From contig JAHBTJ010000021.1 in NCBI GenBank assembly GCA_019638595.1, forward strand, positions 62,001 through 126,000: DNA of 64,000 bases. Reading direction: 5' to 3'. Below are positions 3,692 through 53,031 of this stretch, in pieces. How positions within the stretch are numbered: position 1 is the first letter of the stretch; every line of letters begins with the position of its first letter. Origin of the DNA: Chitinophagaceae bacterium (lineage in GTDB: Bacteria > Bacteroidota > Bacteroidia > Chitinophagales > Chitinophagaceae). The position numbers and the translations under genes are program-made. The notes beneath the pieces are model-generated. The model was not told the origin of the DNA, ran no database searches, and saw nothing but the letters and a program-made list of their open reading frames with translations.

Positions 3692-3730
3692 CTTACAAAT
3701 TGTTAAACCATTTACATGCGAAACGTTGCT

Positions 3731-3820
3731 GTGCGAGGCGTTCCCGCCTCGCACTACTATACTATCGCCCTTTGCTGTGCGAGGTGTCCTCGCCTCGCAC
3801 AACTATACTATCGCCTCCTG
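3731..3820. repeat. REP element 1 (two tandem long hairpins)
   Basis: There are two tandem copies of the long hairpin. 3731-3754 is GTGCGAGGCG-TTCC-CGCCTCGCAC (perfect 10-bp stem); 3777-3800 is GTGCGAGGTG-TCCT-CGCCTCGCAC (one G-T wobble). Each is followed by the same AC(A)ACTATACTATCGCC tail, a degenerate start of the short GTCGCC palindrome seen in other copies. The element fills the gap between the genes ending at 3832 and starting at 3691. Confidence 0.85.
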
Positions 3821-10553: not shown

Positions 10554-10650
10554 GGATTTGAAATTTGAGATGGGGTACAGGCGGTGAGCTGTTAGCTTTC
10601 ACTTCACTCATAGCTCATAGCCGAAAAGCCGATAGCTGACCCCCGACTGC
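10554..10650 (-). repeat. Tag repeat A (GTCAGCTATC ... CTCAAAT type)
   Basis: Read on the minus strand, it opens with GCAGTCGGGGGTCAGCTATC (10650-10631), identical to 25812-25831. It continues with degenerate AGCTATGAG/AGCTAACAGC words and ends with ATCTCAAATTTCAAATCC. The same order is seen in the copy at 25.8 kb. It fills the gap between the respiratory operon terminator and the rhamnosidase operon. Confidence 0.75.
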
Positions 10651-10658
10651 TATAAAAC

Positions 10659-25528: not shown

Positions 25529-26530
25529 ATGCTCAAAAGGCTACAACAAAAATGGAATGTAAATGGCAAACAGTTCTTTTTAATATTATGCGTTTTTGCC
25601 ATAACAGGTACCGCAACTGCCTGGCTTACCAGGGTAATTACCGGCTGGATGGGTTTTACAACCGGAACCTTCTGGCTTTGGCAATGGCTGGTTCGCCTGG
25701 GTATGCTGGTAATCGGCTACCAGGTAATATTACTGACCGTAGCTTTTCTTTTTGGACAATTTGCCTTTTTCTGGGAATTTGAAAAAAGAATGCTGAGGTG
25801 GATGGGGATTGGCAGTCGGGGGTCAGCTATCAGCAATGAGCTATCAGCTATCGGCAATGAGCAAAGGGCGATGAGCGATGGGCGATCAGCCGTTAGCAGT
25901 CAGCTATCAGCGGCCGGCAGCGAAGCTTCAAATCTCAAATCTCAAATCTCAAATCTCCACCCTGTTCATCTTGCCGTTTTTGCATCGGGCACAGGATCTA
26001 ACGCGCAAAAGATCATTGACTATTTCCGCGATCATCCAACTATTAAAAGCACCCTTATTGTAAGCAACAAACCCGAAGCAGGCGTATTAGAGATAGCCAG
26101 GCGTGAAAAGATCGCGTCGCTCATTATAAACCGGGAAAATTTTTTTCGTGGCGACGGGTATGCCGGCGAATTAAAAGCGCTGGATATTCACTGGATCATA
26201 CTGGCGGGTTTTTTATGGAAAGTCCCCGAATCGCTTATACAGGCATTTCCGGGAAAGATCATCAATATCCACCCCGCCCTTTTGCCTAAATACGGGGGCA
26301 AAGGCATGTATGGTCATTTTGTGCACGAAGCGGTGATAGCCGCGGGCGAAAAAGAAAGCGGCATTACCATACATTATGTGGATGAACAATTTGATCACGG
26401 GCAGCATATATTCCAGGCCACCTGCCCTATAGCGCCAGGCGACAGCCCGGAACTGCTGGCTAAAAAAGTACAGGCGCTGGAACACACACACTACCCTCCT
26501 GTAATTGAAAAGCTGGTTACTAACAGGTAA
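25529..26530 (+). CDS. purN: DUF6787 membrane domain fused to phosphoribosylglycinamide formyltransferase (PurN)
   Basis: One frame of 333 aa starts at ATG 25529 (MLKRLQQKWNVNG); TTG 25517 is an alternative. Residues 1-93 form a two- to three-helix membrane protein of the DUF6787 type. Residues 145-333 are PurN: SGTGSN at 153-158, NIHPALLPKY with Asn246 and His248, and FDHG with Asp289, matching the catalytic Asn/His/Asp triad. The enzyme formylates GAR in purine synthesis. Residues 96-144 (Ser/Ala/Asn/Gln-rich) are the in-frame translation of an intergenic tag repeat. An internal ATG at 25871 preceded by AAAGGG could start PurN separately. Fusion, or two overlapping products, cannot be told apart by eye. 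Confidence 0.85.
   Translation: MLKRLQQKWNVNGKQFFLILCVFAITGTATAWLTRVITGWMGFTTGTFWLWQWLVRLGMLVIGYQVILLTVAFLFGQFAFFWEFEKRMLRWMGIGSRGSAISNELSAIGNEQRAMSDGRSAVSSQLSAAGSEASNLKSQISNLHPVHLAVFASGTGSNAQKIIDYFRDHPTIKSTLIVSNKPEAGVLEIARREKIASLIINRENFFRGDGYAGELKALDIHWIILAGFLWKVPESLIQAFPGKIINIHPALLPKYGGKGMYGHFVHEAVIAAGEKESGITIHYVDEQFDHGQHIFQATCPIAPGDSPELLAKKVQALEHTHYPPVIEKLVTNR
25811..25958 (+). repeat. Tag repeat B, read in frame inside purN
   Basis: It starts with GGCAGTCGGGGGTCAGC and runs through words such as AGCTATCAGC, GCTATCGGC, GCGATGAGC and GTTAGCAGTCAGC. It ends with four ATCTCAA-like units (about 25931-25957). The order is the same as in tag repeat A. It contains no in-frame stop and joins the DUF6787 and PurN parts. 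Confidence 0.8.
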
Positions 26531-27551: not shown

Positions 27552-27782
27552 CTACAGGAGCCTGTCAATTTTTTGTGCCAGTTTTTTATCCTTATCGGTC
27601 ACAACATTTCCCGCATCGTGGGTTGAAAGCCATATCTCTACTTTGTTGTATACGTTTGTCCATAAAGGATGATGATCCATCTTTTCCGCTTCCATTGCTA
27701 CGCGCGTCATAAACGCGAATGCCTCCGAAAAGTTTGTAAACTCAAACTTCCTGTATAACTGGTTATTTTTTTCCTGCCACAT
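27552..27782 (-). CDS. phhB: Pterin-4a-carbinolamine dehydratase (4a-hydroxytetrahydrobiopterin dehydratase)
   Basis: The start is at ATG 27782 ([13 protein letters not shown]), giving 76 aa. The frame continues upstream, but that part is only a tag repeat. The family motif is present: [21 protein letters not shown] and STHDAG-VTDKD. The enzyme regenerates the pterin cofactor of aromatic amino acid hydroxylases. At 76 aa it is shorter than the roughly 100-aa classical form and lacks the first helix, as seems common in this group. It lies 96 bp downstream of the IPExxxVDY gene. Confidence 0.9.
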
Positions 27783-27783
27783 G

Positions 27784-27820
27784 TGATTTCTGATTTGAGA
27801 TTTGAGATTTCTGATTTGAA
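27784..27820 (-). repeat. Tag repeat D (tail part only)
   Basis: On the minus strand it reads as repeated ATCTCAAATCTCAAATC with flanking AATCAGAAATC. This is the terminal unit of tag repeats A and B without the AGCTATCAGC part. It directly abuts the phhB start codon. Confidence 0.65.
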
Positions 27821-27878
27821 ATGCGCTTTTCACATTCCCACATTTATCACATTTTCAAATTAACCCATTTTCGAATTC

Positions 27879-33457: not shown

Positions 33458-33486
33458 AGCGTAAAAATAAGAAGGAATCTTGTTAT

Positions 33487-33534
33487 GTCGCCAGAGGCGA
33501 CAATATAGTAGTGCGAGGCGAGGACGCCTCGCAC
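33487..33534. repeat. REP element 2 (short palindrome, then long hairpin)
   Basis: GTCGCC-AGA-GGCGAC (33487-33501), a 9-bp spacer, then GTGCGAGGCG-AGGA-CGCCTCGCAC (33511-33534), a perfect 10-bp stem. It is followed by tandem GCACAGCAAAAA fragments. Confidence 0.85.
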
Positions 33535-33823
33535 AGCAAAAACGCACAGCAAAAATTGCACAGCAAAAACCTCGCACAGCAAAAGTGGTGCGCGGCGAAG
33601 ACGCCACGTGCAGCAAAAATCACGTGCGGGAAAAATTAACCGGCAGAGGATGCATTCCAAATTGTCGTTCCAGCCATCCTCGCAGCCAGGAGAATGCCGC
33701 TTCATCTGCTGCGAGGATGGCTTCTCCCGCCAATTACATTTGCTTTGAGCCGAAGCAAAGACCGCGGCGGTATCGCCATGACGTGCAAGGAGACGATGAT
33801 TCTGTAACTTTCAATATCCCGCT

Positions 33824-33872
33824 GTACGCGGCGTCCTCGCCGCGTACGTCTTTATTGTCGCCTCCAGGCGAC
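33824..33872. repeat. REP element 3 (long hairpin, then short palindrome)
   Basis: GTACGCGGCG-TCCT-CGCCGCGTAC (33824-33847), 9-bp spacer, then GTCGCC-TCCA-GGCGAC (33857-33872). It is the reverse orientation of element 2. The stem bases differ from other copies but pairing is kept. Confidence 0.85.
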
Positions 33873-38605: not shown

Positions 38606-38619
38606 ATTATTATGTTTTT

Positions 38620-38728
38620 GTCGCCAGAGGCGACAGGAGAAATGCATGAGGCGAAGACGCCTCATACAGCGGAGGCTGCTGTGCGTGGCGTCCTCGCCAC
38701 GCACAGTTGTCCTGTCGCCTCCGGCGAC
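38620..38728. repeat. REP elements 4 and 5, inverted pair (BIME-like)
   Basis: Element 4: GTCGCC-AGA-GGCGAC (38620-38634) then ATGAGGCG-AAGA-CGCCTCAT (38646-38665). Element 5 in the opposite orientation: GTGCGTGGCG-TCCT-CGCCACGCAC within a 12-bp stem (38679-38706), then GTCGCC-TCC-GGCGAC (38714-38728). The pair lies directly after the RAYT gene end and before the GH43 start. Confidence 0.9.
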
Positions 38729-38739
38729 TTAAACTCATT

Positions 38740-39335: not shown

Positions 39336-39383
39336 GTCGCCAGAGGCGACAGAATATGCGTGTGAGGCGAAGACGCCTCACAC
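39336..39383. repeat. REP element 6, upstream of the RAYT gene
   Basis: GTCGCC-AGA-GGCGAC (39336-39350), 9-bp spacer, then GTGTGAGGCG-AAGA-CGCCTCACAC (39360-39383). It has the same orientation as elements 2 and 4. Confidence 0.9.
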
Positions 39384-39412
39384 AGCATTTATCCACACAG
39401 CACTTAATATCA

Positions 39413-39826
39413 CTATTTCTTTTTAAATAATATATTATCAATACTATACTTTCCTCCGCCGGCAAAGAAATATATCAACCCCATCAGTGCAAATAAGAAC
39501 GGGTGCTGGTCTTCATACCAAAACCTGCCGTTTCCTACCTTAAAACATATGTACAGCATGGTAACTATTAATATAACTGCGGCAATGCGGGTAAATAAAC
39601 CCAAAGCCAGCAATACCCCCGAAATTAGTTCTGCACTTTTGCCAATATACACCATCGTGGCGGGAGAAGTATGGCTATTAAAGCTTTCCCATTTTGCATA
39701 CTCCTCCATCTTTGCATTATCAAATACTTCCCAGCCATGGTAAGCCATTAACAATCCAATGATGATCCTGACAAAGGTCAATCCTTCCTGTATCATCCAG
39801 GTATCAGGAGAAAATATTCTTTTCAT
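39413..39826 (-). CDS. DoxX-family membrane protein
   Basis: The protein has 137 aa and four membrane helices (about 18-33, 62-80, 84-100 and 112-128). Typical DoxX features are LTFVRIIIGLLMAYHGWEVF, the ELISGVLLALGLFTRIAAVIL stretch and FLFALMGLIYFFAGGG. Its role is uncertain; members are linked to thiosulfate oxidation or thiol stress in other groups. It sits between REP elements 6 and 7, which are inverted relative to each other, and has no evident tie to the surrounding glycan genes. Confidence 0.88.
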   Translation of the reverse strand: MKRIFSPDTWMIQEGLTFVRIIIGLLMAYHGWEVFDNAKMEEYAKWESFNSHTSPATMVYIGKSAELISGVLLALGLFTRIAAVILIVTMLYICFKVGNGRFWYEDQHPFLFALMGLIYFFAGGGKYSIDNILFKKK

Positions 39827-39893
39827 GGTGTATGATTTAAATGGTCAATCAAGCTGTATATAGCATTTTTTGGTGCATGCTCCTGTATGCCCG

Positions 39894-39995
39894 CTGTGCG
39901 TGGCATCTTCCTGCTGCTTCCTGCTATGCGTGGCGTCTTCCTGCTGTGCGTGGCGTCCTCGCCACGCACCCTTTGTCTTGTCGCCTCCCGGCGAC
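39894..39995. repeat. REP element 7 with tandem 5' fragments
   Basis: The complete hairpin is GTGCGTGGCG-TCCT-CGCCACGCAC (39946-39969), then GTCGCC-TCCC-GGCGAC (39980-39995). Upstream, three partial TGCGTGGC(G)TCTTCCTGCT units repeat in tandem (39894-39945), as if the left arm had been copied several times. It lies just after the GH144 stop. Confidence 0.85.
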
Positions 39996-41360: not shown

Positions 41361-44300
41361 TCAGTTATTGCTTTGTTTATAAAATAATAAACCGTCATTA
41401 TTTCTGGCTAAAGCCAGTATGCTGTTTCCCCCTGATATCTTTAAATGTTTTATATCTCTGAATTCTCCGGATGCAGAAAAAATACTATGCTCATATCGTA
41501 TGCGCCCGGTACTTTTATCATAGCAAAATTGAGATGGATACAATGCATCATACCTGCCTTCGTATGGCATTACCCCATAAAAATTTCCAACGGCCATAAA
41601 ACTTGTATCCGACATTTTTGTAAAGGAAAATATGGGTGATAGTTGCAGTTCGTCCGGCAGATCCACTCTTTTAAAATTTCCTTTACCATCATTAATGAAA
41701 CAGCACGAACCCAATATTTCCGCTTTGTATTCTTTATAGTCTTTAAATAAGTCGTAAAATATATAGTCTACTGTTTTACCAGCCACTTCGCCATAGGTGG
41801 GATAGGCCTTTTTCAACACCGGCAGGCGCCTTTCCAATTCGTCTTTAGCAAGAAAAGTATATTCTTTACCATCCGGAAGCGTATAACATAATATCTGTTC
41901 AGTACTTCCATTACGGTCAAAATCTTTAACATACATTTTTAGAGGGCTTATCTTACCAGACCAAAGCTTTGTATTGTATCCCCAGTTCCCGGCTATAATA
42001 TCAACGTTCCCATCGTTATTTATATCTGTTAAATACAGCGACTGCCACAAACCTGAAGAAGCGGGTATCTCTGATTGAACGAACCTGCCCTTATTATTCA
42101 TGAAAATTTTAACCTGCATAAACTCTCCTGCCACTATCAGATCTGGCCAACCATCATTATTTATGTCTGCAAAAGCTGCCGAGGTAACAATCCCAAGAGA
42201 ATCAAACCTTGCTTTTTTATAATCGAAATCAAAAACTCCTTTGCCATTATTGAAATATAAAAAGGAAGGCTTTACATTTCCATAGGCATTTATAGCTCCC
42301 ATATTGCCAATAAAAACATCCATATCACCATCCCGGTCTACATCGGCAACGGCTATGCAGGTTTTATTTTCGTATTGCTGATTAATAGCATTCGGTGATT
42401 TTTTGAAATGTCCTTTACCGTCGTTCAGATACAACCGGTCTTCAAGAGAATGCACATTTTGAGGATATTCATTACCGCCTGCTACTACCCACAAGTCCGG
42501 ATAGCCATCGTTATTTGCATCAAAAAATGTTGCATCCACCTCTTCCGTAACTGCATTAATTAAAAATTCAGCAGTATCGCTTGCTCTAAATGTGCCATCG
42601 CTGTTTTGTATCATCATTGCCCCGGCCTGGTTTTTAGCTCCACATACATAAAAATCATCCAGTCCGTCCCGGTTTACATCTGCAACGGCAATTTTAGGCC
42701 CACGGGTAGATTCCATATGTGGGAGTAAATACTGTATACCAAAATCATTAAAATTATTTTCTACGTGCCGCCACTTCAAGTTTATATTCTTTGTAATATC
42801 CGTAAAATAAGATGGTTGATTACTATATCTTTTTATATCAAAAAAGCCTGCAGCGTTTATTTCTTCTACAACTAGTGGAACATTGGCAGGTACATTCTTT
42901 AACACCTGGTACTTTTGTGATGGCCATATAATAACCGCGCTATCAGCTACACTATTGCTGTCAAGCCCAAAGTGAAGTCTCGGCTCTGATGAAGACATAA
43001 ATCCTCTTGTTGGCATCATTTGCTGAAGTTGCATTTTACCGCCGGCATATAAATAAACTTTAACGCCAACACCAAATTTATTTTGATCCATTCCCTTAAA
43101 AGAAATAGTGATTTGATTTGTGTTTTTACTATTGTTTTTTAAAATTAATGCAGGTCCATTAAGCACATTAATAATAATATCTAAATTCCCGTCATTATTA
43201 AGGTCTGCGTATGCTGCTCCATTATAATATCCATGCAAATCACTTAAGCCCCAATCTTCACTTACATCTTCAAACCGCATATTACCATTCCCTTTAAATA
43301 AAAATGGATGCAAAGCGCCTTCGGGCATACGCTCCAAAGCAACGTCATCATATTTATCCGTTTTATCCAACGTTTGCTTTACATACATGTCTGAAATAAA
43401 TTTTACATAATCCAGATCCACAGGTCGTTTAACAATACCGCTGGATACAAAAAGATCTTTGTTGCCATCATTATCAAAATCTGCAAATAAAGGGGTCCAG
43501 CTCCAGTCTGTTGCTGAAATACCTGCAATCAGAGCCACATCGCTGAAACTTGTGCCATTTGCATTATTCATTTGAAGGCAATTCCTTGAAACCTGGCTTT
43601 GGTATCCGTGACCGAGTATTTTAAATTTATAAATATCAATATTTTCATCGCTTCCATAGGTCTTCAGGTTTTTTTCGTCAGGCGGCAGCATATCTACCGT
43701 AGCAATATCCATTTGCCCGTCATTATTAAAATCGGCCACATCGTTTCCCATACTGGCCCTGCTGTAATGGTTAAAGTGTATTGCTCCTTCTTCCACAAAT
43801 GTTCCATTACCCTGGTTCACATAGTAATAATCATTTTCATGAAAATCATTTCCAATGTAAATATCTTCCCAGCCATCATTGTTGATATCTGCCACGGAAA
43901 TCCCTAATCCGTATCCAAGAGAGCTTTGGTTGATCCCTGCATCTTTTGATACATCAGTGAACCTGCCAGTTGTACTGAGATCATTTCTTAATAAACGATC
44001 TCCTGCCTTTGCATCAAACTTTTTGCGCAAAGATGTATCTACTATATTTCCTACGGGGTCGAGCGATTGGTTTAAAATATAACAATCAAGATCTCCATCA
44101 TGGTCGTAATCAAAAAAAGCTGCCTGGGTTGTATAGCCTGAAAAATCTAACCCGAATTGCTTTGAGCTTTCTGTAAACGTTCCGTCGCCATTATTAATAA
44201 ATAATTCATTATGGCCGTTTGTCCATTTTGTGCCGCCAATTGCTGAAACATATATATCTAAAAATCCATCCCCATTAATATCGGTCATAGTAACGCCGGT

Positions 44301-44639
44301 ACACCAATCTGAGGTGCCCTGCACCTTTGCTTTTTCCGTGATATCCTCAAACTGGAAATTCCCTTTATTCAGATAAAGTTTATTGCGTCCTTTGCTGTTT
44401 GCTGCAAAATAGATATCCGTTAATCCATCATTGTTTATATCTCCTGCTGCCACGCCGGCACCATTATAATAATAGAGATAGTACAATATGTTAAAGGCTT
44501 TCTTCTTTTCAAGATTATTTTCAAACGTTATATGCGTTTTGGAAGAAGGTAGTATTGAAAATTTTCTTTCTTTATTTTTGCAGGAGATACAAAAACATAA
44601 AGCAACTGGTAACAGTAAAAGCCCGGTTCCCTTATACAT
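41361..44639 (-). CDS. VCBS/FG-GAP repeat lipoprotein with ASPIC/UnbV domain
   Basis: The protein has 1092 aa. Lipoprotein signal LLLLPVALCFCISC gives a Cys near residue 20. About thirteen calcium-binding-type loops of the form DxNxDGxxD are visible (for example DINNDGLTDIYFA, DYDHDGDLDCYIL, DFDNDGNKDLFVS, DVDRDGDMDVFIG), arranged as two sets of propeller blades. Between them, near 520-600, is an ASPIC/UnbV domain (NKFGVGVKVYLYAGGK, SSEPRLHFGLDSN). It is probably exposed on the cell surface. Coming straight after susD, where surface glycan-binding proteins are usual, it may bind the polysaccharide. A strong hairpin at 44669-44708 separates it from susD. Confidence 0.9.
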   Translation of the reverse strand: MYKGTGLLLLPVALCFCISCKNKERKFSILPSSKTHITFENNLEKKKAFNILYYLYYYNGAGVAAGDINNDGLTDIYFAANSKGRNKLYLNKGNFQFEDITEKAKVQGTSDWCTGVTMTDINGDGFLDIYVSAIGGTKWTNGHNELFINNGDGTFTESSKQFGLDFSGYTTQAAFFDYDHDGDLDCYILNQSLDPVGNIVDTSLRKKFDAKAGDRLLRNDLSTTGRFTDVSKDAGINQSSLGYGLGISVADINNDGWEDIYIGNDFHENDYYYVNQGNGTFVEEGAIHFNHYSRASMGNDVADFNNDGQMDIATVDMLPPDEKNLKTYGSDENIDIYKFKILGHGYQSQVSRNCLQMNNANGTSFSDVALIAGISATDWSWTPLFADFDNDGNKDLFVSSGIVKRPVDLDYVKFISDMYVKQTLDKTDKYDDVALERMPEGALHPFLFKGNGNMRFEDVSEDWGLSDLHGYYNGAAYADLNNDGNLDIIINVLNGPALILKNNSKNTNQITISFKGMDQNKFGVGVKVYLYAGGKMQLQQMMPTRGFMSSSEPRLHFGLDSNSVADSAVIIWPSQKYQVLKNVPANVPLVVEEINAAGFFDIKRYSNQPSYFTDITKNINLKWRHVENNFNDFGIQYLLPHMESTRGPKIAVADVNRDGLDDFYVCGAKNQAGAMMIQNSDGTFRASDTAEFLINAVTEEVDATFFDANNDGYPDLWVVAGGNEYPQNVHSLEDRLYLNDGKGHFKKSPNAINQQYENKTCIAVADVDRDGDMDVFIGNMGAINAYGNVKPSFLYFNNGKGVFDFDYKKARFDSLGIVTSAAFADINNDGWPDLIVAGEFMQVKIFMNNKGRFVQSEIPASSGLWQSLYLTDINNDGNVDIIAGNWGYNTKLWSGKISPLKMYVKDFDRNGSTEQILCYTLPDGKEYTFLAKDELERRLPVLKKAYPTYGEVAGKTVDYIFYDLFKDYKEYKAEILGSCCFINDGKGNFKRVDLPDELQLSPIFSFTKMSDTSFMAVGNFYGVMPYEGRYDALYPSQFCYDKSTGRIRYEHSIFSASGEFRDIKHLKISGGNSILALARNNDGLLFYKQSNN

Positions 44640-52920: not shown

Positions 52921-52990
52921 CTCAGCTTTCAGTTATGAGCCATGAGCTATCTGCCGATAGCTATCAGCAGTCAGCTAACAGCTATCGGCT
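52921..52990 (+). repeat. Tag repeat C (AGCTATCAGC type)
   Basis: Words CTCAGCTTTCAG, GAGCCATGAGCTATC, GATAGCTATCAGCAGTCAGC and AACAGCTATCGGC in tandem. The ATCTCAAATC tail of copies A and B is missing. It lies between the WcaJ-type gene stop and the sigma gene start. Confidence 0.65.
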
Positions 52991-53031
52991 ATATAAACTA
53001 CAAACTATAAATCAGCTATTTTTTCCAACCT

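Follow-up and report, generated by a model that had tools for sequence, protein, structure and literature searches.

Heptanucleotide repeats are common in some bacteria, where they lie mostly between genes (PMC4679880, PMC4692102). MacGregor (2015; PMC4679880) describes direct TAACTGA repeats in Beggiatoaceae, Cyanobacteria and some Bacteroidetes; read in reverse, these repeats encode the stop-free heptad LSVISYQ, and the paper suggests that modular proteins may tolerate repeats between their subunits. GGGAATC repeats in Xanthomonas and comparable ones in Nostoc are described as heptameric, genome-wide and under-represented in coding regions (PMC4692102). The family treated here, RGCNRTS, shares these traits. 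Like the TAACTGA repeats, it is seven-base, tandem, dispersed, mostly intergenic and stop-free in one orientation, and the reversed TAACTGA unit AGTTATC is one base apart from AGCTATC and gives the same kind of heptad in translation. The two units are not identical, the nearest form of RGCNRTS being one base off, and RGCNRTS, unlike TAACTGA, has four degenerate positions and co-occurs with other heptamer families. GGGAATC also differs from RGCNRTS, being a different unit, one described as forming G-quadruplexes (PMC4692102). In the open-licence literature searched, DUF6787 was not named and nothing was found on heptamer tandem repeats in Chitinophagaceae, and the matches listed there (titles and starts of abstracts) held no description of a DUF6787-PurN fusion or of linkers of the kind reported below. 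The linker described here matches the suggestion made for TAACTGA and adds support from cross-species comparison.

The gene lies on contig C14 of a 7.06-Mb Chitinophagaceae genome, in a stretch of 64,000 nucleotides that was analyzed as a whole (the window; Table 1). An earlier note on this DNA had described a single frame that joins a DUF6787-type membrane domain to a PurN with all catalytic residues. The frame is indeed open over 333 aa (37.1 kDa) and carries both Pfam domains. The open reading frame as listed begins at TTG 25517, and the methionine at 25529 is nearly invariant among 47 fused proteins. DUF6787 (PF20584) matched residues 18-94 with 70.5 bits, above its gathering cut-off of 27.5, and covered profile positions 1-77 of 79. 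Formyl_trans_N (PF00551) matched residues 148-326 with 136.3 bits, above its gathering cut-off of 26.1.

Table 1. Features of the fusion gene and of the heptanucleotide repeats in the window.
Feature	Position	Strand	Remarks
DUF6787-PurN fusion gene (333 aa)	25529..26530	+	Pfam domains; near-invariant M1 (47 fused proteins)
N-terminal DUF6787 part	25529..25810	+	PF20584 at residues 18-94; AlphaFold2 model; hydropathy
RGCNRTS array in linker	25811..25908	+	11 exact units, interspersed with variant ones; degenerate units on to ~25922
Internal ATG, possible alternative PurN start	25871..25873	+	AAAGGG upstream; product 219 aa, 23.9 kDa
TCAAATC array in linker, just 5' of PurN	25928..25955	+	4 units
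PurN-type (GAR transformylase) domain	25961..26530	+	PF00551; TIGR00639 148.6 bits; fold matches to solved GAR transformylases
TCAAATC array	27782..27822	-	Overlaps first residues of a 93-aa minus-strand frame
Short intergenic RGCNRTS-like stretch	10627..10651	-	Below array rule
Intergenic RGCNRTS array	52924..52992	+	Same family as linker array

The C-terminal part resembles PurN (phosphoribosylglycinamide formyltransferase; TIGR00639, PF00551) in sequence, in fold and in conserved N, H and D residues, its nearest solved relatives being 3av3 and 3tqr by sequence and 3auf by fold. It differs from PurN in its N-terminal predicted membrane domain, in its long linker and in a score just below the TIGR00639 cut-off, and it is five residues longer than 3av3 in the GMYGHFVHEAV region. 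Against the TIGR00639 equivalog cut-off of 150.1 bits, the whole fusion scored 146.5 and the domain alone 148.6, shortfalls of 3.6 and 1.5 bits, and the domain is therefore labeled PurN-type here and not filed under that equivalog. Only two of seven Chitinophagaceae sequences passed the cut-off (150.8 and 150.2 bits, both from non-fused stretches) and five failed, with scores of 141-146 for four other fused relatives. As relatives score alike, the near-cut-off score is best read as a trait of the lineage and not as decay of this gene. N246, H248 and D289 are invariant among the 47 fused proteins; we take them to be the catalytic Asn, His and Asp, counterparts of N106, H108 and D144 of E. coli PurN, which is consistent with the complete set of catalytic residues claimed previously.

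A search of the genome with the fusion returned four matches: the gene itself, two short ones on other contigs with 29% identity, and one with 41% identity over its own linker. No second convincing PurN was found in the genome, the three other matches being short and 29-41% identical, and PurT above its cut-off was absent from 12 genomes of the genus (best 129 bits against 502). By these searches the fused gene is the sole GAR transformylase candidate found in the genome. Over 36 pairs within the genus, pN/pS was 0.12-0.31 for DUF6787 and 0.10-0.30 for PurN, values that are rough as pS is high; these low ratios point to purifying selection on both domains.

The structure of the fusion was predicted with AlphaFold2 from the 47 fused proteins (mean pLDDT 86.9, pTM 0.62). 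The DUF6787 part was predicted to contain helices at residues 2-9, 13-41, 49-74 and 78-91. The hairpin helices were confident; those at residues 13-41 and 49-74 are long enough to span a membrane and fit a membrane hairpin, and 19-residue hydropathy exceeded 1.5 in windows starting at residues 15-19 and 53-66. Because both ends of the predicted hairpin lie on one side and basic residues are found there, the PurN part would face the cytoplasm, attached to the membrane via DUF6787. The PurN part was likewise modeled with confidence, and the 50 rows listed by a fold search were all GAR transformylases or formyltransferases and hydrolases related to them, which confirms the formyltransferase fold; the DUF6787 hairpin had no fold match of its own among these 50 rows. 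Between the two domains, residues 98-121 and 124-127 had pLDDT values below 50, and the linker is predicted to be disordered.

The linker (25811-25957, about residues 95-144) is the translation of an RGCNRTS array followed by a TCAAATC array. Its best self-match was at lag 7, with an identity of 0.67 (dinucleotide-shuffle p 0.002), and only one of the six frames is free of stops over 25818-25916, namely the frame in use. That the linker is the in-frame translation of a repeat found outside genes, as proposed earlier, was confirmed by the second RGCNRTS array of the window, which lies outside called genes. The linker looks like a spacer that is under little constraint besides an open frame and that has been colonized by arrays occurring throughout the genome. 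We weighed two functions that the repeats themselves might have. The heptad peptides (LSAISxQ, ISNLKSQ) could form a coiled coil through which PurN oligomerizes, and in the open translation of ideal units every heptad does have a leucine at a distance of three residues from an isoleucine; the predicted disorder of residues 98-121 speaks against this, as do the unrelated linkers of many relatives and the failure of the very similar LSVISYQ heptad in leucine-zipper scoring, as reported by MacGregor (2015; PMC4679880). Alternatively, the arrays could act as a reversible switch in which one heptamer gained or lost causes a frameshift that removes PurN. By computation, loss of one TCAAATC unit would end the protein at 175 residues and gain of one at 159, and heptanucleotide tracts have been proposed as phase switches in Haemophilus (PMC2651432). 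Only four identical units are present here, however, the degeneracy of RGCNRTS should hinder slippage, and turning off the sole GAR transformylase candidate would presumably be costly. Both functions, coiled coil and switch, strike us as exceedingly unlikely.

In the genome as a whole, a triple of RGCNRTS units gave 448 overlapping matches against 0 for the reversed control, and a shuffled C1 stretch contained no RGCNRTS array. None of 36 arrays in 800 kb (contigs C1, C3 and C4) lay inside a called gene and one overlapped a gene end by 2 bases, a count that rests on our own rough gene caller, by which 83-86% of the sequence was called coding. RGCNRTS thus behaves as a heptanucleotide tandem repeat of the intergenic kind, with seven-base units that are scattered over the genome and lie mostly outside genes, and the linker is the exception; one of the two arrays in the window is genic, and it is that of the linker. 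A hand count of 26 arrays between same-strand genes found 11 running along the genes and 15 opposed to them. At several places a plus array is followed, a few to ~200 bases on, by a minus array, and such pairs would form a hairpin. Examples noted in passing are C1:341910-342208 in the own genome and, in genome G002, C3:344003-344062, C6:199526-199592, C6:243627-243699 and C13:94652-94716.

The TCAAATC triple gave ten matches at nine sites of the genome, the linker included. Within 220 bases of the eight other sites, RGCNRTS precedes TCAAATC on one strand at four (L219, L220, L221 and L227), as in the linker; at L219 this order is on the minus strand and is accompanied by an extra inverted pair. 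Both repeats are present in a different arrangement at L225, and no RGCNRTS array was found within the same distance at L224, L226 and L228. The minus-strand TCAAATC array of the window probably lies upstream of the true start of the small gene that it appears to enter. The spacers L219, L220, L221, L225 and L227 mix heptamer families of the RGCNRTS, TCAAATC, AACCTGC and ACAAACT types, and that of L225 also holds the element CCTGTCCGCCGTGGCGG; the seven-base units form a lexicon. Two other repeats were seen in the window. A dispersed palindromic family, GTCGCC...GGCGAC with GCGAGGCG...CGCCTCGC arms, occurs at 3726-3815, 33483-33864, 38614-38734 and 39336-39984, and repeated AATATC...CCATCATTATT...ATCTG-like units at 41997-44442 may belong to a minus-strand repeat-domain protein.

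To place the fusion relative to the repeat, relatives were compared. Within the genus, both domains share one frame in 9 of the 12 genomes. Separate DUF6787 and purN genes, for which the earlier note had proposed a check, are present in G006 and G004 (L011 and L012), where they adjoin with 337 and 106 nt between the matches, and G002 gave no DUF6787 match; the fusion is therefore dispensable. Among 288 Chitinophagaceae genomes drawn evenly, DUF6787 was matched in 140 (141 matches; 135 genomes over the cut-off) and gave no match in 148, and it was matched in 0 of 14 controls. The lengths of the 141 DUF6787 frames were bimodal, with 73 of at least 280 aa, 68 of at most 182 aa and none between. 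Long frames (at least 280 aa) occurred in 32 of the 54 genera having a match, where frame length is a proxy for the fusion, which itself was read in 48 loci. In a sample of the phylum, DUF6787 was found in 80 of 296 genomes, and all four long frames were in Chitinophagaceae. No fusion was found in the 74 DUF6787 genomes from outside the family (73 over the cut-off; frames up to 204 aa), and purN lay within ~1.5 kb of DUF6787 in none of the 20 loci fetched there; in the family it was near DUF6787 in 22 of the best 30 loci, fused ones included. DUF6787 stands alone outside Chitinophagaceae, whereas in the fusion it is joined to PurN.

The loci in which the fusion was read form a biased set of 118, made up of 12 from the genus, 26 others (L033-L058) and the best 80 of 476 named loci. 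Sixteen were dropped for an identical PurN stretch, leaving 102, of which 48 were fused, 7 separate and 47 without DUF6787 in the locus. Linkers of the 48 fused loci ranged from 6 to 78 aa, 20 of them being shorter than 60 nt, and those of G008, G009 and G010, fused members of the same genus, contained no array of RGCNRTS or TCAAATC. Because long frames span 32 genera and many linkers are short or without the lag of 7, the comparison dates the DUF6787-PurN fusion before the repeat. In a PurN tree of 102 rows, built by a quick method and with stars on 16 of its 98 inner branches, the fused genes were scattered, with 14 changes between fused and non-fused by parsimony; its support is too low for fusions and splits to be counted, and the separate genes of G006 and G004 may be either a split or the original state. 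In G189, G032, G210 and G224 the PurN matches have one or two internal stops, which in G189 lie before the core. Locus L055 (G295) is likely a loss of the fusion.

According to the earlier note, the fusion arose when insertion or expansion of the repeat erased both the DUF6787 stop and the PurN start. The linker does consist of intergenic-type repeats, in an order that recurs at four of the eight other TCAAATC sites. This origin is contradicted by the fusion-length frames of 32 genera and by the array-free linkers of G008, G009 and G010, as well as by linkers of only 6 aa, and we consider it very improbable. The part of the former interpretation that stands is the single-frame fusion of a predicted membrane domain to PurN through a linker of intergenic-type repeat; the part that falls is the repeat as its cause.

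The same note had allowed that PurN starts at the internal ATG 25871. PurN translated mainly from a start inside the linker would be soluble, with the upstream frame open by chance or otherwise. The ATG exists and is preceded by AAAGGG. In G295, whose genus has fused members, no DUF6787 turned up next to PurN; its start appears to be an ATG that corresponds to the end of the linker in a relative, so that ATGs within linkers can become starts. In G011 and G001 an ATG lies two codons ahead of the counted start of the PurN core, and in genus g71 a similar stretch recurs before an ATG in the linker, which allows internal starts there. However, 21 of the 48 fused linkers contain no ATG, GTG or TTG, and 28 contain no ATG, which makes internal initiation improbable as a general rule. 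Of the nine genomes in the genus that carry the fusion, G005 alone has an ATG in a matching setting, and AAAGGG is missing there. Frame and openness are moreover kept across linkers of widely differing length: one third of the shuffle probability of no stop, summed over the 48 fused linkers, came to 5.4, in a set chosen as fused and with 7 further loci separate, and open in-frame linkers are therefore far above chance. A PurN made mainly from the internal start is an unlikely reading of this gene, and the fusion is the better one.

Within the genus, the content of the linker follows the load of the repeat in the genome. The linkers of G000, G005, G003 and G007 hold 11, 14, 7 and 6 RGCNRTS units, with 448, 232, 206 and 76 genome matches, and five other fused genomes, with 41, 37, 24, 3 and 0 genome matches, have no array units in their linkers, two of them having a single stray unit. 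The chance of this order would be 1 in 126 if the nine genomes were independent; they are related, and the figure is therefore weaker. G002, with 145 RGCNRTS matches, has no linker to compare. The element AAACCTGTCCGCCGTGGCGGA also lies in the linkers of G005 and G001; it is dispersed, and 7 copies were counted in the own genome, 17 in G001 and 4 in G005. In genus g85, the CAGNAT triple gave 69, 68 and 54 matches in three genomes with lag-7 linkers and 2 and 0 in two without; this case is looser, and the linker of G300 is built from another heptamer. The correlation with load thus rests on nine and five related genomes. In G167, 1 of 28 CAGNAT matches lies inside the genome's own linker, and the linkers of G233 and G218 are heptamer-periodic with other units, CAGNAT matches numbering 0 and 1. 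Of the 28 linkers in the family that reach 60 nt, 17 had seven as the best lag between 2 and 12, 16 of these with p <0.05 (dinucleotide shuffles, best lag), and 11 showed no preference for it. Because a seven-base period does not match the codon, a process at the DNA level is indicated, and not selection on the protein. This is most simply explained if the linker can accommodate the same arrays that fill spacers and selection removes closed frames.

Taken together, we think it likely that in an old Chitinophagaceae fusion DUF6787, a predicted membrane hairpin of two helices, is joined to PurN by an unconstrained linker that was later filled by genome-wide heptamer arrays, which were kept only if open. 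The sole GAR transformylase candidate found in the genome would probably be one polypeptide, held at the membrane on its cytoplasmic side. The linker would be disordered and constrained little beyond staying open. Heptanucleotide arrays are numerous in the spacers of genomes of this family, and in array-rich genomes the process that fills spacers would also place heptanucleotide arrays in the linker, where they may be neutral, selection retaining only those in an open orientation and frame. A bolder reading, which we offer tentatively and lean slightly against, is that heptamer-making at the DNA level, common to the whole family, acts in this linker under a strict coding filter, inside a gene that is probably essential; each lineage would write its intergenic lexicon there in an open orientation, and in all these genera the purine enzyme would be tethered to the membrane. 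If this were true, the conserved protein would provide a scale for dating and measuring the birth and spread of the repeats.

Two findings are left, namely a domain fusion of wide occurrence and a clear example of intergenic repeats residing within a gene. The fusion of DUF6787 to PurN across many genera suggests that DUF6787 has a role in placing PurN and makes that role testable. Where neither length nor sequence is constrained, a coding region can take up intergenic heptanucleotide arrays, and the arrays in these linkers bear on the origin of the abundant, unexplained heptanucleotide repeats.
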